DNA of 64,000 nt from Arenicola marina (taxonomy: Eukaryota > Annelida > Polychaeta > Arenicolidae). Below the pieces are notes generated by a model. That model did no database searches, was not told the origin of the DNA, and was given only the letters and a program-made list of their open reading frames with translations. A program made the position numbers and the translations under genes. This document shows, one piece after another, positions 1,101-31,024 of this stretch. The stretch spans positions 36,800,035 through 36,864,034 of the forward strand of contig OZ025256.1 of NCBI GenBank assembly GCA_964019135.1. The letters run 5' to 3'. The stretch's first letter is position 1. Every line of letters begins with the position of its first letter.

Positions 1101-1589
1101 GCAACCCCACCGCTGCAACCGGACACCGCTGCCTTCCCATCCGCCGCAGGGACGGACACTTCCACCTTCTAACCCACCAAGGGACGGACACTGCTGCCTT
1201 CGAACCCACCAAGAGACGGACACTACTGCCCTCTAACCCACCAAGGGACGGACACTGCTACCTTGTAACCCACCAAGGGACGGACACTGCTGCCTTGTAA
1301 CCCACCAAGTGACGGACACTGCTGCCTTCTAACCCACCAAGTGACGGACACTGCTGCCTTCTAAGCCACCAAGGGACGGACACTTCCAACTTCTAACCCA
1401 CCAAGGGACGGACACTGCTGCCTTCGAACCCACCAAGTGACGGACACTACTGCCCTCTAACCCACCAAGGGACGGACACTGCTACCTTGTAACCCACCAA
1501 GGGACGGACACTGCTGCCTTGTAACCCACCAAGTGACGGACACTGCTGCCTTCTAACCCACCAAGTGACGGACACTGCTGCCTTCTAAG

Positions 1590-4500
1590 CCACCAAGGGA
1601 CGGGCACTTCCAACATCTAACCCACCAAGGGACGGACACTGCTGCCTTCTAACCCACCAAGGGACGGACACTGCTGCTTTCTAACCCACCATGTGATGGA
1701 CACTGCTGCCTTCTAACCCACCAAGGGACGGACACTGCTGCCTTTGAACCCACCAAGTGACGGACACTGCTGCCTACTAACCCACCAAGTGACGGACACT
1801 GCTGCCTTCGAACCCACCAAGTGACGGACACTACTGCCTTCTAACCCACCATGTGATGGACACTGCTGCCTTCTAACCCACCAAGGGACGGACACTTCCA
1901 CCTTCTAACCCACCATGGGACGGACACTGCTGCTTTCTAACCCACCAAGGGACGGACACTGCTGCCTACTAACCCACCAAGTGACGGACACTTCCACCTT
2001 CTAACCCACCAAGGGACGGACACTTCTGCCTTCTAACCCACCAAGGGACGGACACTGCTGCCTTCTAACCCACCAAGGGACGGACACTTCCACCTTCTAA
2101 CCCACCAAGGGACGGACACTTCTGCCTTCTAACCCACCAAGGGACGGACACTGCTGCCTTCTAACCCACCAAGGGACGGACACTGCTGCTTTCTAACCCA
2201 CCAAGGGACGGACACTGCTGCCTTCTAACCCACCAAGGGACGGACACTGCTGCCTTCTAACCCACCAAGGGACGGACACTGCTGCCTTCTAACCCACCAA
2301 GGGACGGACACTTCCACCTTCTAAACCACCAAGTGACGGATACTGCTGCCTTCTAACCCACCAAGGGACGGACACTGCTGCCTTCTAACCCACCAAGGGA
2401 CGGACACTTCCACCTTGTAACCCACCAAGTGACGGATACTGCTGCCTTCTAACCCAGCAAGGGACGGACACTGCTGCCTTCTAACCCACCAAGGGACGGA
2501 CACTTCCACCTTCTAACCCACCAAGGGACTGACACTGCTGCCTTCGAACCCACCAAGTGACTGACACTACTGCCTTCTAACCCACCAAGGGACGAACACT
2601 GCTGCCTTCTAACCCACCATGTGATGGACACTGCTGCCTTCTAACCCAGCAAGGGACGAACACTGCTGCCTTGTAACCTACCAAGGGACGGACACTGCGG
2701 CCTTCTAACCCAGCAAGGGACGGACACTTTCACCTTCTAACCCACCAAGGGACGAAAACTGCTGCCTTCTAACCCACCATGTGATGGACACTGCTGCCTT
2801 CTAACCCAGCAAGGGACGGACACTGCTGCCTTCTAACCCACCAAGGGACGGACACTTCTACCTTCTAACCCACCAAGGGACGGACACTGCTGCCTTCTAA
2901 CCCACCAAGGGACGGACACTGCTGCTTTCTAACCCACCAAGTGACGGACACTGCTGCCTTCTAACCCACCAAGGGACGGACACTGCTGCCTTCTAACCCA
3001 CCAAGGGACGGACACTTCCACCTTCTAACCCACCAAGTGACGGATACTGCTGCCTTCTAACCCAGCAAGGGACGGACACTGCTGCCTTCTAACCCACCAA
3101 GGGACGGACACTTCCACCTTCTAACCCACCAAGGGACTGACACTGCTGCCTTCGAACCCACCAAGTGACTGACACTGCTGCCTTCTAACCCACCAAGGGA
3201 CGGACACTGCTACCTTGTAACCCACCAAGGGACGGACACTGCTGCCTTGTAACCCACCAAGTGACGGACACTGCTGCCTTCTAACCCACCAAGTGACGGA
3301 CACTGCTGCCTTCTAAGCCACCAAGGGACGGACACTTCCAACTTCTAACCCACCAAGTGACGGACACTGCTGCCTTCGAACCCCCCAAGGAACGGACACT
3401 TTCACCTTCTAACCCACCAAGGGACGGACACTGCTGCCTTCTAACCCACCATGTGATGGACACTGCTGCCTTCTAACCCACCAAGGGACGGACACTGCTG
3501 CCTTCGAACCCACCAAGTGACGGACACTGCTGCCTACTAACCCACCATGTGATGGACACTGCTGCCTTCTAACCCACCAAGGGACGGACACTGCTGCCTT
3601 CTAACCCACCAAGGGACGGACACTTCCACCTTCTAACCCAGCAAGGGACGGACACTGCTGCTTTCTAACCCACCAAGGGACGGACACTTCCACCTTCTAA
3701 CCCACCAAGGGACGAACACTGCTGCCTTCTAACCCACCATGTGATGGACACTGCTGCCTTCTAACCCAGCAAGGGACGAACACTGCTGCCTTCTAACCCA
3801 CCAAGGGACGGACACTGCGGCCTTCTAACCCAGCAAGGGACGGACACTTTCACCTTCTAACCCACCAAGGGACGAACACTGCTGCCTTCTCACCCACCAT
3901 GTGATGGACACTGCTGCCTTCTAACCCAGCAAGGGACGGACACTGCTGCCTTCTAACCCACCAAGGGACGGACACTGCTGTCTTCGAACCCACCAAGTGA
4001 CGGACACTGCTGCCTACTAACCCACCAAGTGACGGACACTTCCACCTTCTAACCCACCAAGGGACGGACACTTCTGCCTTCTAACCCACCAAGGGACGGA
4101 CACTGCTGCCTTCTAACCCACCAAGGGACGGACACTTCCACCTTCTAACCCACCAAGGGACGGACACTTCTGCCTTCTAACCCACCAAGGGACGGACACT
4201 GCTGCCTTCTAACCCACCAAGGGACGGACACTGCTGCTTTCTAACCCACCAAGGGACGGACACTGCTGCCTTCTAACCCACCAAGGGACGGACACTGCTG
4301 CCTTCTAACCCACCAAGGGACGGACACTGCTGCCTTCTAACCCACCAAGGGACGGACACTTCCACCTTCTAAACCACCAAGTGACGGATACTGCTGCCTT
4401 CTAACCCACCAAGGGACGGACACTGCTGCCTTCTAACCCACCAAGGGACGGACACTTCCACCTTGTAACCCACCAAGTGACGGATACTGCTGCCTTCTAA

Positions 4501-6325
4501 CCCAGCAAGGGACGGACACTGCTGCCTTCTAACCCACCAAGGGACGGACACTTCCACCTTCTAACCCACCAAGGGACTGACACTGCTGCCTTCGAACCCA
4601 CCAAGTGACTGACACTACTGCCCTCTAACCCACCAAGGGACGGACACTGCTACCTTGTAACCCACCAAGGGACGGACACTGCTGCCTTGTAACCCACCAA
4701 GTGACGGACACTGCTGCCTTCTAACCCACCAAGTGACGGACACTGCTGCCTTCTAAGCCACCAAGGGACGGACACTTCCAACTTCTAACCCACCAAGGGA
4801 CGGACACTGCTGCCTTCGAACCCCCCAAGGAACGGACACTTTCACCTTCTAACCCACCAAGGGACGGACACTGCTGCCTTCTAACCCACCATGTGATGGA
4901 CACTGCTGCCTTCTAACCCACCAAGGGACGGACACTGCTGCCTTCGAACCCACCAAGTGACGGACACTGCTGCCTGCTAACCCACCAAGGGACGGACACT
5001 GCTGCCTTCTAACCCACCAAGGGACGGACACTTCGACCTTCTATCCCACCAAGGGACGGACACTGCTGCTTTCTAACCCACCAAGTGACGGACACTGCTG
5101 CCTTCTAACCAACCAAGGGACGGACACTGCTGCCTTCTAACCCACCAAGGGACGGACACTTCCACCTTCTAACCCACCAAGTGACGGACACTGCTGCCTT
5201 CTAACCCACCAAGGGACGGACACTGCTGCCTTCTAACCCACCAAGGGACGGACACTGCTGCCTTCTAACCCACCAAGGGACGGACGCTTCCACCTTCTAA
5301 CCCACCAAGGGACGGACACTGCTGCCTTCTAACCCACCAAGGGCCGGACACTGCTGCCATCTAACCCACCAAGGGACGGACACTTCCACCTTCTAACCCG
5401 CCAAGTGACGGACACTGCTGCCTTCTAACCCACCAAGGGACGGACACTTCCACCTTCTAACCCACCAAGGGACGGACACTGCTGCCTTCTAACCCACCAA
5501 GGGACGGACACTGCTGCCTTCTAACCCACCAAGGGACGGACACTTCCACCTTCTAACCCACCAAGGGACGGACACTGCTGCCTTCTAACCCACCATGTGA
5601 TGGACACTGCTGCCTTCTAACCCACCAAGGGACGGACACTGCTGCCTTCTAACCCACCAAGGGACGGACACTGCTGCCTTCTAACCCACCATGTGATGGA
5701 CACTGCTGCCTTCTAACCCACCAAGGGACGGACACTGCTGCCTTCTAACCCACCATGTGACGGACACTGCTGCCTTCTAACCCACCAAGGGACGGACACT
5801 GCTGCTTTCTAACCCACCAAGGGACGGACACTTCCACCTTCTAACCCACCAAGTGACGGACACTGCTGCCTTCTAACCCAGCAAGGGACGGACACTGCTG
5901 CCTTCTAAGCCACCAATGGACGGACACTTCCACCTTCTAACCCACCAAGGGACGAACACTGCTGCCTTCTAACCCACCATGTGATGGACACTGCTGCCTT
6001 CTAACCCAGCAAGGGACGAACACTGCTGCCTTCTAACCCAGCAAGGGACGGACACTGCGGCCTTCTAACCCAGCAAGGGACGGACACTTTCACCTTCTAA
6101 CCCACCAAGGGACGAACACTGCTGCCTTCTAACCCACCATGTGATGGACACTGCTGCCTTCTAACCCAGCAAGGGACGGACACTGCTGCCTTCTAACCCA
6201 CCAAGGGACGGACACTGCTGCCTTCGAACCCACCAAGTGACGGACACTGCTGCCTACTAACCCACCATGTGATGGACACTGCTGCCTTCTAACCCACCAA
6301 GGGACGGACACTGCTGCCTTCTAAC
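1590..6325 (+). repeat. Higher-order block, copy 1 (4,736 bp)
   Basis: The sequence from about 1590 to 6338 matches the sequence 4,736 bp downstream almost base for base, including rare variant units such as CGGGCACTTCCAACATC (near 1601 and 6337). Immediately upstream of 1590 the two diverge (differences at 1566 and 1589). A sub-block of about 620 bp (1951-2572) is also repeated 2,048 bp downstream (3999-4620). Confidence 0.9.
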
Positions 6326-9300
6326 CCACCAAGGGACGGGCACTTCCAACATCTAACCCACCAAGGGACGGACACTGCTGCCTTCTAACCCACCAAGGGA
6401 CGGACACTGCTGCTTTCTAACCCACCATGTGATGGACACTGCTGCCTTCTAACCCACCAAGGGACGGACACTGCTGCCTTTGAACCCACCAAGTGACGGA
6501 CACTGCTGCCTACTAACCCACCAAGTGACGGACACTGCTGCCTTCGAACCCACCAAGTGACGGACACTACTGCCTTCTAACCCACCATGTGATGGACACT
6601 GCTGCCTTCTAACCCACCAAGGGACGGACACTTCCACCTTCTAACCCACCATGGGACGGACACTGCTGCTTTCTAACCCACCAAGGGACGGACACTGCTG
6701 CCTACTAACCCACCAAGTGACGGACACTTCCACCTTCTAACCCACCAAGGGACGGACACTTCTGCCTTCTAACCCACCAAGGGACGGACACTGCTGCCTT
6801 CTAACCCACCAAGGGACGGACACTTCCACCTTCTAACCCACCAAGGGACGGACACTTCTGCCTTCTAACCCACCAAGGGACGGACACTGCTGCCTTCTAA
6901 CCCACCAAGGGACGGACACTGCTGCTTTCTAACCCACCAAGGGACGGACACTGCTGCCTTCTAACCCACCAAGGGACGGACACTGCTGCCTTCTAACCCA
7001 CCAAGGGACGGACACTGCTGCCTTCTAACCCACCAAGGGACGGACACTTCCACCTTCTAAACCACCAAGTGACGGATACTGCTGCCTTCTAACCCACCAA
7101 GGGACGGACACTGCTGCCTTCTAACCCACCAAGGGACGGACACTTCCACCTTGTAACCCACCAAGTGACGGATACTGCTGCCTTCTAACCCAGCAAGGGA
7201 CGGACACTGCTGCCTTCTAACCCACCAAGGGACGGACACTTCCACCTTCTAACCCACCAAGGGACTGACACTGCTGCCTTCGAACCCACCAAGTGACTGA
7301 CACTACTGCCTTCTAACCCACCAAGGGACGAACACTGCTGCCTTCTAACCCACCATGTGATGGACACTGCTGCCTTCTAACCCAGCAAGGGACGAACACT
7401 GCTGCCTTGTAACCTACCAAGGGACGGACACTGCGGCCTTCTAACCCAGCAAGGGACGGACACTTTCACCTTCTAACCCACCAAGGGACGAAAACTGCTG
7501 CCTTCTAACCCACCATGTGATGGACACTGCTGCCTTCTAACCCAGCAAGGGACGGACACTGCTGCCTTCTAACCCACCAAGGGACGGACACTTCTACCTT
7601 CTAACCCACCAAGGGACGGACACTGCTGCCTTCTAACCCACCAAGGGACGGACACTGCTGCTTTCTAACCCACCAAGTGACGGACACTGCTGCCTTCTAA
7701 CCCACCAAGGGACGGACACTGCTGCCTTCTAACCCACCAAGGGACGGACACTTCCACCTTCTAACCCACCAAGTGACGGATACTGCTGCCTTCTAACCCA
7801 GCAAGGGACGGACACTGCTGCCTTCTAACCCACCAAGGGACGGACACTTCCACCTTCTAACCCACCAAGGGACTGACACTGCTGCCTTCGAACCCACCAA
7901 GTGACTGACACTGCTGCCTTCTAACCCACCAAGGGACGGACACTGCTACCTTGTAACCCACCAAGGGACGGACACTGCTGCCTTGTAACCCACCAAGTGA
8001 CGGACACTGCTGCCTTCTAACCCACTAAGTGACGGACACTGCTGCCTTCTAAGCCACCAAGGGACGGACACTTCCAACTTCTAACCCACCAAGTGACGGA
8101 CACTGCTGCCTTCGAACCCCCCAAGGAACGGACACTTTCACCTTCTAACCCACCAAGGGACGGACACTGCTGCCTTCTAACCCACCATGTGATGGACACT
8201 GCTGCCTTCTAACCCACCAAGGGACGGACACTGCTGCCTTCGAACCCACCAAGTGACGGACACTGCTGCCTACTAACCCACCATGTGATGGACACTGCTG
8301 CCTTCTAACCCACCAAGGGACGGACACTGCTGCCTTCTAACCCACCAAGGGACGGACACTTCCACCTTCTAACCCAGCAAGGGACGGACACTGCTGCTTT
8401 CTAACCCACCAAGGGACGGACACTTCCACCTTCTAACCCACCAAGGGACGAACACTGCTGCCTTCTAACCCACCATGTGATGGACACTGCTGCCTTCTAA
8501 CCCAGCAAGGGACGAACACTGCTGCCTTCTAACCCACCAAGGGACGGACACTGCGGCCTTCTAACCCAGCAAGGGACGGACACTTTCACCTTCTAACCCA
8601 CCAAGGGACGAACACTGCTGCCTTCTCACCCACCATGTGATGGACACTGCTGCCTTCTAACCCAGCAAGGGACGGACACTGCTGCCTTCTAACCCACCAA
8701 GGGACGGACACTGCTGTCTTCGAACCCACCAAGTGACGGACACTGCTGCCTACTAACCCACCAAGTGACGGACACTTCCACCTTCTAACCCACCAAGGGA
8801 CGGACACTTCTGCCTTCTAACCCACCAAGGGACGGACACTGCTGCCTTCTAACCCACCAAGGGACGGACACTTCCACCTTCTAACCCACCAAGGGACGGA
8901 CACTTCTGCCTTCTAACCCACCAAGGGACGGACACTGCTGCCTTCTAACCCACCAAGGGACGGACACTGCTGCTTTCTAACCCACCAAGGGACGGACACT
9001 GCTGCCTTCTAACCCACCAAGGGACGGACACTGCTGCCTTCTAACCCACCAAGGGACGGACACTGCTGCCTTCTAACCCACCAAGGGACGGACACTTCCA
9101 CCTTCTAAACCACCAAGTGACGGATACTGCTGCCTTCTAACCCACCAAGGGACGGACACTGCTGCCTTCTAACCCACCAAGGGACGGACACTTCCACCTT
9201 GTAACCCACCAAGTGACGGATACTGCTGCCTTCTAACCCAGCAAGGGACGGACACTGCTGCCTTCTAACCCACCAAGGGACGGACACTTCCACCTTCTAA

Positions 9301-11061
9301 CCCACCAAGGGACTGACACTGCTGCCTTCGAACCCACCAAGTGACTGACACTACTGCCCTCTAACCCACCAAGGGACGGACACTGCTACCTTGTAACCCA
9401 CCAAGGGACGGACACTGCTGCCTTGTAACCCACCAAGTGACGGACACTGCTGCCTTCTAACCCACCAAGTGACGGACACTGCTGCCTTCTAAGCCACCAA
9501 GGGACGGACACTTCCAACTTCTAACCCACCAAGGGACGGACACTGCTGCCTTCGAACCCCCCAAGGAACGGACACTTTCACCTTCTAACCCACCAAGGGA
9601 CGGACACTGCTGCCTTCTAACCCACCATGTGATGGACACTGCTGCCTTCTAACCCACCAAGGGACGGACACTGCTGCCTTCGAACCCACCAAGTGACGGA
9701 CACTGCTGCCTGCTAACCCACCAAGGGACGGACACTGCTGCCTTCTAACCCACCAAGGGACGGACACTTCGACCTTCTATCCCACCAAGGGACGGACACT
9801 GCTGCTTTCTAACCCACCAAGTGACGGACACTGCTGCCTTCTAACCAACCAAGGGACGGACACTGCTGCCTTCTAACCCACCAAGGGACGGACACTTCCA
9901 CCTTCTAACCCACCAAGTGACGGACACTGCTGCCTTCTAACCCACCAAGGGACGGACACTGCTGCCTTCTAACCCACCAAGGGACGGACACTGCTGCCTT
10001 CTAACCCACCAAGGGACGGACGCTTCCACCTTCTAACCCACCAAGGGACGGACACTGCTGCCTTCTAACCCACCAAGGGCCGGACACTGCTGCCATCTAA
10101 CCCACCAAGGGACGGACACTTCCACCTTCTAACCCGCCAAGTGACGGACACTGCTGCCTTCTAACCCACCAAGGGACGGACACTTCCACCTTCTAACCCA
10201 CCAAGGGACGGACACTGCTGCCTTCTAACCCACCAAGGGACGGACACTGCTGCCTTCTAACCCACCAAGGGACGGACACTTCCACCTTCTAACCCACCAA
10301 GGGACGGACACTGCTGCCTTCTAACCCACCATGTGATGGACACTGCTGCCTTCTAACCCACCAAGGGACGGACACTGCTGCCTTCTAACCCACCAAGGGA
10401 CGGACACTGCTGCCTTCTAACCCACCATGTGATGGACACTGCTGCCTTCTAACCCACCAAGGGACGGACACTGCTGCCTTCTAACCCACCATGTGACGGA
10501 CACTGCTGCCTTCTAACCCACCAAGGGACGGACACTGCTGCTTTCTAACCCACCAAGGGACGGACACTTCCACCTTCTAACCCACCAAGTGACGGACACT
10601 GCTGCCTTCTAACCCAGCAAGGGACGGACACTGCTGCCTTCTAAGCCACCAATGGACGGACACTTCCACCTTCTAACCCACCAAGGGACGAACACTGCTG
10701 CCTTCTAACCCACCATGTGATGGACACTGCTGCCTTCTAACCCAGCAAGGGACGAACACTGCTGCCTTCTAACCCAGCAAGGGACGGACACTGCGGCCTT
10801 CTAACCCAGCAAGGGACGGACACTTTCACCTTCTAACCCACCAAGGGACGAACACTGCTGCCTTCTAACCCACCATGTGATGGACACTGCTGCCTTCTAA
10901 CCCAGCAAGGGACGGACACTGCTGCCTTCTAACCCACCAAGGGACGGACACTGCTGCCTTCGAACCCACCAAGTGACGGACACTGCTGCCTACTAACCCA
11001 CCATGTGATGGACACTGCTGCCTTCTAACCCACCAAGGGACGGACACTGCTGCCTTCTAAC
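6326..11061 (+). repeat. Higher-order block, copy 2 (4,736 bp)
   Basis: Direct tandem copy of 1590-6325. The one difference I noted is C at 3290 versus T at 8026. Similarity ends near 11074, where CGGACACTTCCACC replaces the CGGGCACTTCCAAC that would start a third copy. Sequence after 11075 is related but rearranged. This is either a very recent unequal exchange or an assembly duplication. Confidence 0.88.
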
Positions 11062-13453
11062 CCACCAAGGGACGGACACTTCCACCTTCTAACCCACCAA
11101 GTGACGGACACTGCTGCCTTCTAACCCAGCAAGGGACGGACACTGCTGCTTTCTAACCCACCAAGGGACGGACACTTCCACCTTCTAACCCACCAAGGGA
11201 CGAACACTGCTGCGTTCTAACCCACCATGTGATGGACACTGCTGCCTTCTAACCCAGCAAGGGACGAACACTGCTGCCTTCTAACCCACCAAGGGACGGA
11301 CACTGCGGCCTTCTAACCCAGCAAGGGACGGACACTTTCACCTTCTAACCCACCAAGGGACGAACACTGCTGCCTTCTAACCCACCATGTGATGGACACT
11401 GCTGCCTTCTAACCCAGCAAGGGACGGACACTGCTGCCTTCTAACCCACCAAGGGACGGACACTGCTGCCTTCGAACCCACCAAGTGACGGACACTGCTG
11501 CCTACTAACCCACCAAGTGACGGACACTTCCATCTTCTAACCCACCAAGGGACGGACACTTCTGCCTTCTAACCCACCAAGGGACGGACACTGCTGCCTT
11601 CTAACCCACCAAGGGACGGACACTTCCACCTTCTAACCCACCAAGGGACGGACACTTCTGCCTTCTAACCCACCAAGGGACGGACACTGCTGCCTTCTAA
11701 CCCACCAAGGGACGGACACTGCTGCTTTCTAACCCACCAAGTGACGGACACTGCTGCCTTCTAACCCACCAAGGGACGGACACTGCTGCCTTCTAACCCA
11801 CCAAGGGACGGACACTTCCACCTTCTAACCCACCAAAGTGACGGATACTGCTGCCTTGTAACCCACCAAGTGACGGACACTGCTGCCTTCTAACCCACCA
11901 AGTGACGGACACTGCTGCCTTCTAAGCCACCAAGGGACGGACACTTCCAACTTCTAACCCACCAAGGGACGGACACTGCTGCCTTCGAACCCACCAAGGG
12001 ACGGACACTTTCACCTTCTAACCCACCAAGGGACGGACACTGCTGCCTTCTAACCCACCAAGGGACGGACACTGCTGCCTTCTAACCCACCAAGTGACGG
12101 ACACTGCTGCCTACTAACCCACCAAGGGACGGACACTGCTGCCTTCTAACCCACCAAGGGACGGACACTTCCACCTTCTAACCCACCAAGTGACGGACAC
12201 TGCTGCCTTCTAACCCACCAAGGGACGGACACTGCTGCCTTCTAACCCACCAAGGGACGGCCACTGCTGCCTTCTAACCCACCAAGGGACGGACACTTCC
12301 ACCTTCTAACCCACCAAGGGACGGACACTGCTGCCTTCTAACCCACCAAGGGACGGACACTGCTGCCATCTAACCCACCAAGGAACGGACACTTCCACCT
12401 TCTAACCCACCAAGGGACGGACACTGCTGCCTTCAAACCCACCAAGGGACGGACACTGCTGCCTTCTAACCCACCAAGGGACGGACACTTCCACCTTCTA
12501 ACCCACCAAGGGACGGACACTGCTGCCTTCTAACCCACCATGTGATGGACACTGCTGCCTTCTAACCCACCAAGGGACGGACACTGCTGCCGTCTAACCC
12601 ACCAAGGGACGGACACTGCTGCCTTCTAACCCACCATGTGATGGACACTGCTGCCTTCTAACCCACCAAGGGACGGACACTGCTGCCTTCTAACCCACCA
12701 TGTGACGGACACTGCTGCCTTCTAACCCACCAAGGGACGGACACTGCTGCCTTCTAACCCACCAAGGGACGGACACTGCTGCCTTCTAACCCACCAAGGG
12801 ACGGACACTTCCACCTTCTAACCCACCAAGTGACGGACACTGCTGCCTTCTAACCCAGCAAGGGACGGACACTGCTGCCTTCTAACCCACCAATGGACGG
12901 ACACTTCCACCTTCTAACCCACCAAGGGACGAACACTGCTGCCTTCTAACCCACCATGTGATGGACACTGCTGCCTTCTAACCCAGCAAGGGACGAACAC
13001 TGCTGCCTTCTAACCCACCAAGGGACGGACACTGCGGGCTTCTAACCCAGCAAGGGACGGACACTTTCACCTTCTAACCCACCAAGGGACGAACACTGCT
13101 GCCTTCTAACCCACCATGTGATGGACACTGCTGCCTTCTAACCCACCAAGGGACGGACACTGCTGCCTTCTAACCCACCAAGGGACGGACACTGCTGCCT
13201 TCGAACCCACCAAGTGACGGACACTGCTGCCTACTAGCCCACCAAGTGACGGACACTGCTGCCTTCTAACCCACCAAGGGACGGACACTTCCACCTTCTA
13301 ACCCACCAAGGGACGGGCACTGCTGCCTTCTAACCCACCAAGGGACGGACACTGCTGCCTTCTAACCCACCAAGGGACGGACACTGCTGCCTTCTAACCC
13401 ACCAAGGGACGGACACTGCTGCCTTCTAACCCACCAAAGGACGGACACCGCTG

Positions 13454-26032: not shown

Positions 26033-26265
26033 TGGCACTACGCCTCACCACGCCTCACCACGCCTCACCACGCCTCACCACGCCTCACCACGCCTCACCA
26101 CGCCTCACCACGCCTCAACACGCCTCACCACGCCTCACCACGCCTCACCACACCTCACCACGCCTCACCATGCTTCAACTCGCTTTGGCACCACGCCTCA
26201 CCACGCCTCACCACGTCTCACCACGCTTTGGCACCACGCCTCACCACGCCTCAACACGCTATTGT
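26033..26265. repeat. 10-bp satellite (CACGCCTCAC)n, left block
   Basis: About 23 units of the decanucleotide CACGCCTCAC, interrupted twice by GCTTTGGCACCACGCC. The same kind of sequence resumes at 30290, on the other side of the LINE. The 159-codon frame at 25865-26344 is a repeat by-product. Confidence 0.92.
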
Positions 26266-26443
26266 TTTGATTCAGTTTAACCTGAGTACAGTTATAACCA
26301 AGGTAGTGTGTGGAAAGTCTCATTTGAACATTGGACACGCATAACACAGAAAGTGAGTAATTATTGAGGCAATTCGGTGGTGTTGAACAGAATTCTTTGC
26401 TCAATACGCTGGAATCCAATGGTAGTGAGGACACAGATGATAA

Positions 26444-27145
26444 TTCAAAAGTTGTATAAATATAAAACTGTCACCCTCCTACACAGAAGGCCCATTTTTA
26501 AGGACTTTCCATGACATCCAAGGTGAATTCTATATAATTATATTAAGCATCAACGTAGCCTCTATATCTTCGAAATGTGAGGAGTTGAAAGTGTTGACAG
26601 ATACTTTGAGTAGTAACGAAATTGAAATGTCTGCAATATGTTTACAAGAAAGTTGGTTGTCTGACGAGTCACTGTATGCCCTGATCATATAATTAAAAAA
26701 TAATTTCAAGTACAAAATTGTTGCCGCATCCGTCCAATCTGATATATGGGAAGGGCAATTCATAGAAATCATGGGGCGTCACTCTATGGAAAACAACATT
26801 ATATCAGGAAATATATATCGGCCCCCATGCGATGTCAATGATAATTATATTAGATTCACCGAAGAATTGTCCACTACCCTTCACTATCTCGGCAAAAAAC
26901 CTAGCGAGGTTGTCATTGCTGGTGACTACAATATAGATCTTCTCTGTATAAATCAAAAGCCTGTTTTTAGTGAGTATCTCGACATTGTTCTTTCTCGGAG
27001 TTATTTCCCCAGAATAACTCTCACAACATGGCTTTCCAAATATAAGGGAACTTTAATTGCTCATTTCCTTTGTAAACTGATGCCTAAAACATTGAGTACC
27101 ACTGCTGGCATAATAATCGCGGGCCTGTCTGACCATCTGCCATAA
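26444..27145 (+). pseudogene. LINE endonuclease domain fragment
   Basis: Frame starting at 26444 reads ILSINVASISSKCEELK, then ICLQESWLSDESL (Gln-Glu at 26645-26650, the metal-binding Glu region of APE-type endonucleases). A TAA follows at 26690-26692. The same frame resumes with KYKIVAAS, NIYRPP, GDYNIDLL (26921-26944) and GLSDHLP (27122-27142; Asp-His is the catalytic pair in this family). Between these the GTLIAHF segment replaces the usual GTLID. The frame ends at TAA 27143-27145, exactly where the tandem expansion begins. The domain is otherwise of ordinary length, so only one internal stop separates it from an open frame. Confidence 0.85.
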
Positions 27146-28650
27146 TTATAATCAAGGGCCTGTCTGACCATCTGCCATAATTATAATCAAGGGCCTGTCT
27201 GACCATCTGCCATAACTATAATCAAGGGCCTGTCTGACCATCTGCCATAATAATCGCGGGCCTGTCTGACCATCTGCCATAACTATAATCAAGGGCCTGT
27301 CTGACCATCTGCCATAATAATCGCGGGCCTGTCTGACCATCTGCCATAACTATAATCAAGGGCCTGTCTGACCATCTGCCATAATTATAATCAAGGGCCT
27401 GTCTGACCATCTGCCATAATTATAATCAAGGGCCTGTCTGACCATCTGCCATAATTATAATCAAGGGCCTGTCTGACCATCTGCCCTAATAATCAAGGGC
27501 CTGTCTGACCATCTGTCATAATTATAATCAAGGGCCTGTCTGACCATCTGCCATAATTATAATCAAGGGCCTGTCTGACCATCTGTCATAATTATAATCA
27601 AGGGCCTGTCTGACCATCTGCCATAATTATAATCAAGGGCCTGTCTGACCATCTGCCATAATAATCAAGGGCCTGTCTGACCATCTGCCATAACTATAAT
27701 CGCGGGCCTGTCTGACCATCTGCCATAATTATAATCAAGGGCCTGTCTGACCATCTGCCATAATAATCGCGGGCCTGTCTGACCATCTGCCATAATTATA
27801 ATCGAGGGCCTGTCTGACCATCTGCCATAATTATAATCAAGGGCCTGTCTGACCATCTGCCATAATAATCAAGGGCCTGTCTGACCATCTGCCATAATTA
27901 TAATCAAGGGCCTGTCTGACCATCTGCCATAACTATAATCGCGGGCCTGTCTGACCATCTGCCATAATTATAATCAAGGGCCTGTCTGACCATCTGCCAT
28001 AATAATCAAGGGCCTGTCTGACCATCTGCCATAATTATAATCGAGGGCCTGTCTGACCATCTGCCATAATTATAATCAAGGGCCTGTCTGACCATCTGCC
28101 ATAATAATCAAGGGCCTGTCTGACCATCTGCCATAATTATAATCAAGGGCCTGTCTGACCATCTGCCATAACTATAATCGCGGGCCTGTCTGACCATCTG
28201 CCATAATTATAATCAAGGGCCTGTCTGACCATCTGCCATAATAATCAAGGGCCTGTCTGACCATCTGCCATAATTATAATCAAGGGCCTGTCTGACCATC
28301 TGCCATAATTATAATCAAGGGCCTGTCTGACCATCTGCCATAATTATAATCAAGGGCCTGTCTGACCATCTGTCATAATTATAATCAAGGGCCTGTCTGA
28401 CCCATCTGCCATAATTATAATCAAGGGCCTGTCTGACCATCTGTCATAATTATAATCAAGGGCCTGTCTGACCATCTGCCATAATTATAATCAAGGGCCT
28501 GTCTGACCATCTGTCATAATTATAATCAAGGGCCTGTCTGACCATCTGCCATAATTATAATCAAGGGCCTGTCTGACCATCTGCCATAATAATCAAGGGC
28601 CTGTCTGACCATCTGCCATAAGAATCAAGGGCCTGTCTGACCATCTGTCA
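27108..28650. repeat. 32/35-bp minisatellite amplified from LINE endonuclease codons
   Basis: About 45 units of CAAGGGCCTGTCTGACCATC plus a TGCCATAATTATAAT (35 bp) or TGCCATAATAAT (32 bp) linker. The first unit is part of the LINE open frame (AGIIIAGLSDHLP). The last unit reads GLSDHLSYFIFLNVNI straight into the LINE linker, so both edges are LINE codons. The CGCGGGCC variant of the first unit recurs at intervals; the CAAGGGCC variant dominates. A 32/35-bp alternation pattern (near 27660-28270) suggests multi-unit duplications. Confidence 0.95.
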
Positions 28651-28998
28651 TATTTTATTTTCCTCAATGTTAATATTCGACTCTCAAATAAAACACCTAC
28701 TCATGTACAGGTGCAAAAAGGGGAACAAAATTGCCTTCAAGGCGCCAAAGCCCGCCTTGCCAAGGCAGATATAAACAGTAAACAGAATGATGAAATGCAT
28801 CCCAATCCAAACATAAATTACAAAATACTGGAGAATATACTTATTAAGGCTAACTCGGACATTTTACCAAGCAAAACAATCAAATTCAATAAGTATAAAC
28901 ATAAGAAGTCAGTACGGGTAATAAAGGGAATAATAAAGTATATTACCTTCAGGAAACTAAAGAAACGCCACAAACTTCAATGTAATATGGAGCATTGA
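28630..28998 (+). pseudogene. LINE ORF2 linker between endonuclease and RT
   Basis: Continues from the last satellite unit without interruption: GLSDHLSYFIFLNV, then TPTHVQVQKG, KARLAKADIN, KTIKFNKYKHKKS and IIKYITFRKLKKRHK, ending at TGA 28996-28998. The SDHLPYF and K.NKYKHKKS.W motifs are characteristic of the segment that joins endonuclease and RT in CR1/L2/Jockey-like ORF2 proteins. It supports the view that the endonuclease at 26.4-27.1 kb and the RT at 29.3-29.9 kb belong to one insertion. Confidence 0.75.
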
Positions 28999-29036
28999 AG
29001 ACAGACTTAAAGACGTAAAACACAATATTGTAAAAA

Positions 29037-29249
29037 ATGATAGTAGAAGCTAAAAAGGAACATTATCTTAATCGCTTGGACAAGTGCAAAAATGATATGA
29101 AAGGGCCCTGGAAAGAAATCAAATGCCTCCTCAATAATAACAATGGTAGGAAAGACATTCCGGATTACTTTAATATCGATGGAAAACTCCTAGGAAATAG
29201 ACAGGTGATAGCAGACCATTTAAACAGTTTTTTTTGCCAACATCGGTAA
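29037..29249 (+). pseudogene. LINE ORF2 pre-RT segment
   Basis: Reads IVEAKKEHYLNRLDKCKNDM, KGPWKEIKCLLN and ADHLNSFF, the usual sequence ahead of the RT in this LINE group. After the T8 run at 29227-29234 the protein-like reading (FANIGNTLSGN) moves to another frame and joins ISYESYLKPLP, so an indel in the T run is likely. Confidence 0.7.
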
Positions 29250-29280
29250 CACACTCTCCGGAAATTTAGATTGCACTAAC

Positions 29281-29910
29281 ACTATATCATATGAGTCTTA
29301 TTTGAAACCCCTACCCACATTAAATAAATTATGTCTCGCAGAAGTAAAGAAGACCATGATATGGGAGGCCAGTAACGAATTAAAACCTAAATCTAGTTCG
29401 GGCCACGATGGAATCTCAGGAAAACTGCTTATGGTAATCAAAGAAGAAATATGTGACAGTATTACTTTGATAATCGATCAGTGCCTGGCGACAGGGATCT
29501 TCCCTGACCAGTTGAAACTGGCCATAACTATAGACCAATAGCACTACTACCAGCTATTTCAAGCGTTTTCGAGAAAATTATATTTTCTGTACTTTCTGTA
29601 TGACCATTTTCAGAAGCAAAATCTCTTTAATTCTAGCCAGTATGGCTTCAAAAAAAAACACTCAACTGAACATGCCACATTAGAACGGATAGATAAAATC
29701 ATACAAAAGCTAGATGAAGGCAAAATTCCTATTCATATATATCTGGACTTATCCAAGGCATTTGATACTTTGATTCATAAGATCCTATTAAACAAGCTTG
29801 ACCACTATGGCGTATCCGGAACTGCTCTAAATCTTCTTAGAAGTTATCTGAACAATCGCAAACAGTACGTTATGATTGATAACTACGCAAGATCCGAAGT
29901 TATGCCTGTC
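29281..29910 (+). pseudogene. LINE reverse transcriptase fragment (N-terminal half)
   Basis: Begins ISYESYLKPLPTLNKLCL, then ELKPKSSSGHDGIS (RT motif 1-2 region), ATGIFPDQLKLA, then YRPIALLPAISSVFEKIIF in another frame after loss of about 15-17 codons that normally hold VVPIYKKGD. The first frame resumes at QYGFKKKHSTEHATL, followed by IYLDLSKAFDTLIHKILLNKL (motif A with catalytic Asp) and LRSYLNNRKQYV. At about 29908 the match stops after SEVMPV. The palm segment with VPQGSILGP and YADD and the thumb are deleted and replaced by AT-rich 3' sequence. Confidence 0.8.
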
Positions 29911-30289
29911 ATGTACGTTATTGTTATGTTTGTAATGTACGTATGCGATAACTCCATCATTAGTTGTGTTTTCTTGGTTCTGTTTTCTGCTCCTCTCTAT
30001 TCTCACATACCATATTTGCCGTTAACTTTAACTTTAATATATTACTACCTATTTTATCTCTGATAGTATTAAAGTCAATATTGTTTTAGTGCAACTGGCC
30101 TGCTATGAACTTCTTTTTGTAAAGGCGTTTTTTTTGTGTGTGTCCTTTTTTCCCCCTTTTTTTTGAGGGGGCTGCTCGGTGGTCCTAATGGGGTCTCCTC
30201 GGTCAAGCAAGCTACACCACCGTCCCTATGATCGAATTTTTTTTCATTTGTGTGCATTTATGTTTTATGTTTTTATGTGCATACCATGC
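29911..30289. other. Probable LINE 3' region, AT-rich with T runs
   Basis: AT-rich, non-coding sequence with several T runs (30127-30134, 30147-30153, 30158-30165, 30237-30244). It links the truncated RT to the CACGCC satellite. I interpret it as 3' UTR of the same LINE joined by an internal deletion, but unrelated sequence cannot be excluded without a family consensus. Confidence 0.45.
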
Positions 30290-31024
30290 CACGCCACCAC
30301 GCCACCACGCCTAACCACGCCACGTCACCACGCCTCACCACAACGCCTCGTCACCACACCTCATCACCACGCCTCATCACCACGCCTCGCACCCACGCCT
30401 CGTCACCACGCTTCACCACGACTCGTCACAACGCCTCACCATGCCAAGCCAGCACGGCACGCCACAACGCCTCATCACCATGCTTCGTCACCACGCTTCA
30501 CCATGCCTCGTCACAACGCTGCACCACGCCTCGTCAGCACGCGTCACCATGCCACGCCACCACGCAACGACACCACGCCTCGTCAATCCGCCTCGTCACC
30601 ACGCCTCACCACGCCTCGTCAGCACGCTTCACCATGCCACGCCACCACGCAACGCCACCACGCCACGCCACCACGCCTCGTCATTCCGCCTCGTCACCAC
30701 GCCTCGTTCCCACGCTTCACCATGCCTCGTCACAACGCTTCGCCACGCCTCGTCACAACGCTTCACCATGCCACGCCACCATGCCACGCCACCACGCTTC
30801 GTCATCGCGCCTCATTTCCACGCCTCACCACGCCTCGTCACCACGCCTCGTCACCACGCTTCACCACGCCTCACCACGCCTCTGAATGCCTCACCACGCT
30901 TCGCCAGGCATCACCACGCTTCGCTAGGCATCACAACGGCTCGTCACCATGCCTCGTTACAACGCCTCGTAACCACACCTCACCACGCCTCGTCACCACG
31001 CCTCGTCACCACGCCTCGTCATCC
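30290..31024. repeat. 10-13-bp satellite (CACGCCTCGTCAC), right block
   Basis: Degenerate tandem copies of CACGCCTCGTCAC, CACGCCACGCCAC and CACGCCTCAC, about 60-70 units. It shares the CACGCCTC core and orientation with the block at 26033-26265, but is more diverged and dominated by the GTCAC variants. Overlapping plus-strand frames of 207-282 codons (Thr/His/Ala/Ser-rich) are repeat by-products. Confidence 0.88.

Follow-up and report, generated by a model that had tools for sequence, protein, structure and literature searches.

How a minisatellite came to lie inside the coding region of a retrotransposon copy, and from which sequence it grew, is the question raised by the stretch of DNA analysed here (64,000 nucleotides, called the window throughout; contig C9:36800035-36864034 in an assembly of 867 Mb). 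It had been predicted from the letters of the window that the array was born within this one copy, out of codons of the endonuclease. All features are on the plus strand and are numbered from the first position of the window.

The array and its host LINE copy

The array occupies positions 27110-28649 (1540 bp) and was parsed into 45 head-to-tail units belonging to 10 sequence types, with lengths of 32 bp (12 units), 35 bp (32 units), and 36 bp (one unit); TRF called it at 27113-28652 (period 35; 44.9 copies; score 2630), and both counts bear out the predicted 45 or so copies of a 32/35-bp unit. The 35-bp form, which carries a 3-bp insertion, is the most frequent inside the array; the first and the last unit both have the ancestral length of 32 bp. 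With 45 head-to-tail units of 32-36 bp, the array belongs to the minisatellites (units of about 10-100 bp, at most about 100 of them), and also to the TE-derived tandem repeats, as it sits inside a TE copy and repeats a unit with homology to TE sequence.

The host is a degraded LINE copy at 26260-30282, delimited by collinear matches to sister copies (among L029-L046), the longest of which start at 26258-26267 and end at 30240-30277. Its 5' part is missing, the copy beginning near 26260 where the sisters go on; gaps in the match coordinates indicate deletions relative to the sisters of about 63 bp near 26671-26681 and of about 920-930 bp at 29911. A 3' tail of the (TGATTC)n type is also lacking; 13 of the 14 listed sister 3' ends have a GATTCT/TGATTC tail, of a type that we take to be CR1-like.

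The sister copies have the features of a non-LTR retrotransposon (LINE) with an APE-type endonuclease (EN), EN and reverse transcriptase (RT) both being encoded in ORF2. The RT domain (PF00078) is clear in sisters (L046, E 3.3e-33; L036, E 1.9e-24), and PF03372 (Exo_endo_phos) matches residues 62-265 of the L036 ORF with 22.1 bits (E 1.5e-4), below the cut-off of 24.5; a sequence search of the EN part against PDB structures gave no match at E 0.1. SDHLP starts at residue 263 of the L036 ORF, and the PF03372 match ends at residue 265, which is the last profile position; APE-type endonucleases have a C-terminal Asp-His, consistent with this placement.

When the L036 ORF (605 aa) was used as tblastn query, its residues 22-267 matched to the left of the array (26462-27142; EN part of ORF2, ending in the SDHLP codons; 73% identity), and its residues 255-605 matched to the right (28612-29610; linker and start of RT; frameshifted, in separate matches in another frame), so that the array interrupts what was a single protein. 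Both edges are as originally predicted: the sequence enters the array on the left as AGIIIAGLSDHLP, in the EN frame, and leaves it on the right as GLSDHLSYFIFLNVNI, which continues into ORF2. Directly after unit 1 the EN frame terminates. No frame is open through the whole array, the longest stop-free runs being 27 codons on the plus and 67 codons on the minus strand, and the predicted array of motif-encoding units does not hold if read as an open coding array. Since no frame stays open, since the EN frame stops after unit 1, and since the unit is bounded by a 4-bp repeat (described below), the overlap with the catalytic motif appears incidental, a matter of chance. No function of the array is evident: it has no long open frame, and neither a single unit nor a pair folds unusually as DNA (z 0.39, 0.57, 0.81).

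Empty sites in sister copies and a single array

The left edge of the site was matched 52 times in the assembly (pattern written with CAA, at most 3 mismatches allowed) and the right edge 87 times, 34 of these inside the array. At 49 of the 52 left edges the right edge stands at a distance of exactly 13 bases, the arrangement of an empty site. The three left edges without a right edge at this exact spacing are that of the window; that of L043 on C4, in which a deletion begins where the founding stretch ends; and that of one C19 copy (unread), at which no second unit was found with the two-unit and junction patterns described below. No left edge pairs with four of the right edges: that of the window; that of L044, whose site aligns without a break and has one additional base on the left side; and those at C2:21080434 and C9:9354464 (both unread). 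In the alignment of sister copies, all 16 rows (from 15 of 18 sister loci) are continuous and free of an array; the three loci outside this alignment are L029, with a deletion starting inside the site, L040, the left part of which is absent, and L043. Of the 52 family sites located by their left edge, 49 thus run uninterrupted across SDHLP; the array is no family-wide feature.

A pre-existing minisatellite that was invaded by the LINE is exceedingly improbable as the origin of the array. The window LINE and two others do lie between like tandem arrays; the unit, however, is LINE coding sequence that occurs as a single copy in the 49 paired sister sites, and the edges of the array meet the LINE frame exactly on both sides. 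An array older than the LINE was rejected as contradicted by the continuous 16-row alignment together with the paired empty sites.

Searches of the whole assembly for the unit and for its junctions returned the window array each time: a 33-base pattern of the 35-bp form (at most 3 mismatches; 32/32 matches), an exact two-unit pattern (0 mismatches; 42/42 matches), and a 29-base junction pattern of the 32-bp form (at most 3 mismatches; 11/11 matches). Repeat counts of this kind are lower bounds, and strongly diverged arrays would escape patterns that tolerate 3 mismatches at most. Intermediates or nascent duplications of two or three units at the same site in other LINE copies were not found with the junction pattern (at most 3 mismatches). 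Among the LINE bodies of the 18 loci and the window, the window alone has an internal array of more than 3.4 copies with a period of 9-200. A dispersed satellite family, with arrays at many loci, is not what is found: within the mismatch limits of the patterns there is one locus only, at which all unit-unit junctions lie, and no LINE-free satellite was seen. With the junction observed only here and the site empty in 49 of 52 cases, it follows that a single LINE copy gave rise to the array, as had been predicted.

The array could also have been born in a source LINE and brought here by transposition, for its place is within the unit that transposes, and the orientation is unchanged. Two adjacent units were found nowhere else in the pattern searches of the assembly, however, and the EN frame ends after unit 1, so that a source bearing the array would by itself be unable to make an intact ORF2; we regard this origin as very improbable.

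Three further observations were made on the sister copies. In L029 (the C20 copy), the left end of the deletion (2779-2781) falls within the same 32-bp stretch, just past AATCAAG, and the sequence resumes at the match to window position 29294. The same locus has a 26-bp tandem duplication (two copies; 4739-4791) beyond the matched LINE body, possibly a nascent minisatellite. At C2:20547499-21080434, seven related LINE sites with near-identical site sequence lie on one strand within about 0.53 Mb, possibly through segmental or tandem amplification.

Ancestral unit, birth, and growth

The ancestral unit is type B, the 32-bp CAAGGGCC form (6/45 units), since CAA stands in each of the 16 aligned empty sites and since type B is identical over the full 32 bp to the sites of L030 and L031; unit 44 (28586-28617) is of this type. 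The CGCGGGCC form (type C; 4/45 units), originally predicted to be ancestral, is derived and now stands at the left edge as unit 1 (27110-27141; 32 bp), where TCGC takes the place of the TCAA found in all 16 aligned empty sites, these having been retrieved with a query from the window in which CGC is present. Among the 52 left-edge matches CGC is likewise the window's only, a weaker test, as that pattern was written with CAA. Of the predicted survival of a 32-bp form beside a derived 35-bp form, the length stands, 32 bp being ancestral and kept unchanged in 6 of 45 units, but the 32-bp variant named was the wrong one. Type G (CGAGGG; 2/45 units) fits an intermediate step.

CATA is present at both borders of the array. 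The left copy (27109-27112) belongs to the direct repeat bounding the founding unit, CATA being found again 32 bp downstream in the empty site of L030; the right copy (28649-28652) is a truncated terminal unit, the right end of the array stopping after CATA. In the empty sites the two copies are 32 bp apart, with an exact repeat of 4 bp and surroundings alike at 8 of 10 bases. In the L030 element, 1.5% of positions have a junction homology of at least 4 bp at offset 32, against a mean of 2.4% over offsets 20-60, and the CATA repeat was noticed after the fact.

The following course of events is proposed. A LINE copy, now lying between two CCACGCC-type arrays, would have inserted there and decayed. 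In the window copy alone, the 32 bp of endonuclease region between the two CATA tetramers would have been tandemly duplicated, probably after the insertion; given the CATA on either side of these founding 32 bp, the duplication most likely began with replication slippage or with some other event mediated by microhomology. No structural cause for slippage was apparent when a single unit and a pair were folded as DNA. The 35-bp variant, with its 3-bp insertion, and the CGCGGGCC variant may then have arisen within the array and spread, while unequal exchange, slippage, or conversion, acting on single units and on blocks, would have brought it to 45 units. Slippage, unequal crossing-over, and microhomology-mediated repair are indistinguishable here. 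Taken as a whole, this account of LINE decay, a CATA-bounded 32-bp duplication in one copy, and block growth to 45 units is held to be very probable.

Growth by blocks is visible in the order of the units: at a period of 7, 17 of the 38 comparisons pair units of the same type, and 13 of 5000 shuffles attain this rate at any period from 2 to 15; these higher-order blocks are observed chiefly in mid-array, the 10 unit types otherwise following one another irregularly. The same order bears on whether the array, or its length, is an artefact of the assembly. The array comes from a single assembly, without reads; collapse or stutter would nevertheless hardly yield an irregular order of 10 types with a 7-unit pattern in mid-array, and an artefact is judged highly improbable.

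The timing of the birth may be read from the divergence of the array and of its flanks. Private substitutions of the window flanks, relative to nine sister copies, number 55 in 996 columns (5.5%; 20/426 and 35/570), and the 45 units together show 30 substitutions relative to type B (about 2%; types scored by hand). The lower divergence of the units leans to a birth after LINE insertion; no birth date follows from the gap, because the units share ancestry and their lineages are not independent. Alternatively, reverse transcriptase may have slipped between the CATA sites of the RNA template, the array being seeded at insertion and growing later. Such seeding would yield the same CATA anatomy, and the ancestral unit type has 0/32 private changes against the 55/996 of the flanks; at the flank rate, however, only about 1.8 private changes are expected per 32 bp, so that none is not unusual, and the mean divergence of the units, below that of the flanks, leans towards a later birth. 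Seeding at insertion is considered unlikely, and a duplication after insertion remains the preferred reading.

Genomic setting and known systems

The LINE is adjoined on the left by a CACCACGCCT minisatellite (26036-26259) and on the right by a minisatellite with a CCACGCCTC core (30283-31021), both called by TRF; as the two arrays have the same CCACGCC core, the LINE probably inserted into one array. Two further LINE copies likewise lie between two like arrays, L037 (arrays at 1-1176 and 6614-6981) and L039 (arrays at 1722-2180 and 6814-7048). Copies of the window LINE family do sit in minisatellites, three of them including that of the window.

TRF coverage of the 64-kb window is 69.6%, with more than 20 differing arrays (largest, 1120-13453). 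In seven 4-kb samples of the genome it was 0, 69.6, 99.95, 26.9, 63.4, 22.0, and 0% (mean about 40%); judged by so few samples, the host genome seems to abound in tandem repeats. For an earthworm assembly, 9.84% tandem repeats are given (PMC12130307). We tentatively raise the possibility, itself rather doubtful, that the host genome seeds minisatellites at an unusually high rate. Its young LINE families, each with dozens of alignable copies, would then form a natural assay, in which every birth could be caught together with the sequence that preceded it and counted per base and per unit of divergence.

On the mitochondrial contig the gene order was nad3, nad2, cox1, cox2, atp8, cox3 (names by reading; COX1 by Pfam), and no mitochondrial tRNAs were found there by ARAGORN with bacterial settings; a leech mitogenome has a nad3-trnS1-nad2 stretch (PMC9957428). 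Taken with the annelid ground pattern, this suggests that the host is an annelid.

It is often difficult to establish from what sequence a minisatellite started. In the present case about 50 sister copies have kept that sequence, and one can read directly from them which unit founded the array, what bounds that unit, and in what order the later changes came. The same scan over all LINE copies of the genome would give a birth rate and the microhomologies that seed arrays. The setting is the more open part: in a repeat-rich genome, LINE families could gauge how frequently minisatellites are born.

Minisatellites born from TEs are already well documented. A literature search made no minisatellite within LINE ORF2 or EN evident, which does not imply absence from the literature. 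As presented in the parts of the sources consulted, the models of Haber-Louis (1998) and Taylor-Breden (2000) have minisatellites born by slippage between short direct repeats (PMC6947457, PMC3389668), and just 6% of the TE-derived arrays of humans may have begun in the way that the two established models describe (PMC3389668). The window array resembles these models in the short repeat on either side of the founding stretch, in the truncated terminal unit, and in the later growth of the array; unlike the flanking direct repeat of 5-10 bp in the Haber-Louis model (PMC6947457, PMC3389668), its exact repeat, CATA, is 4 bp, with 8 of 10 bases alike around it.

Human TE-derived minisatellites number 7,276 arrays, or 23% of minisatellites/satellites (PMC3389668), and Alu-derived minisatellites were described by Jurka and Gentles (2006, as cited in PMC3389668). 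Like both, the window array was born inside an individual TE copy; unlike the human TE-derived arrays, it is hosted by the coding region of a LINE in a probable annelid, and about 50 sisters of this LINE keep the empty site. Minisatellites or satellites have also come from LINE, LTR, and SINE elements (CR1-C, chicken; LINE-1, Phodopus; MaLR, mouse; PMC6947457), in which, as here, TE sequence became tandem repeats; unlike those cases, the window array is at one locus only and is not a dispersed satellite. Among TE-born minisatellites it is a new and unusually clean case.
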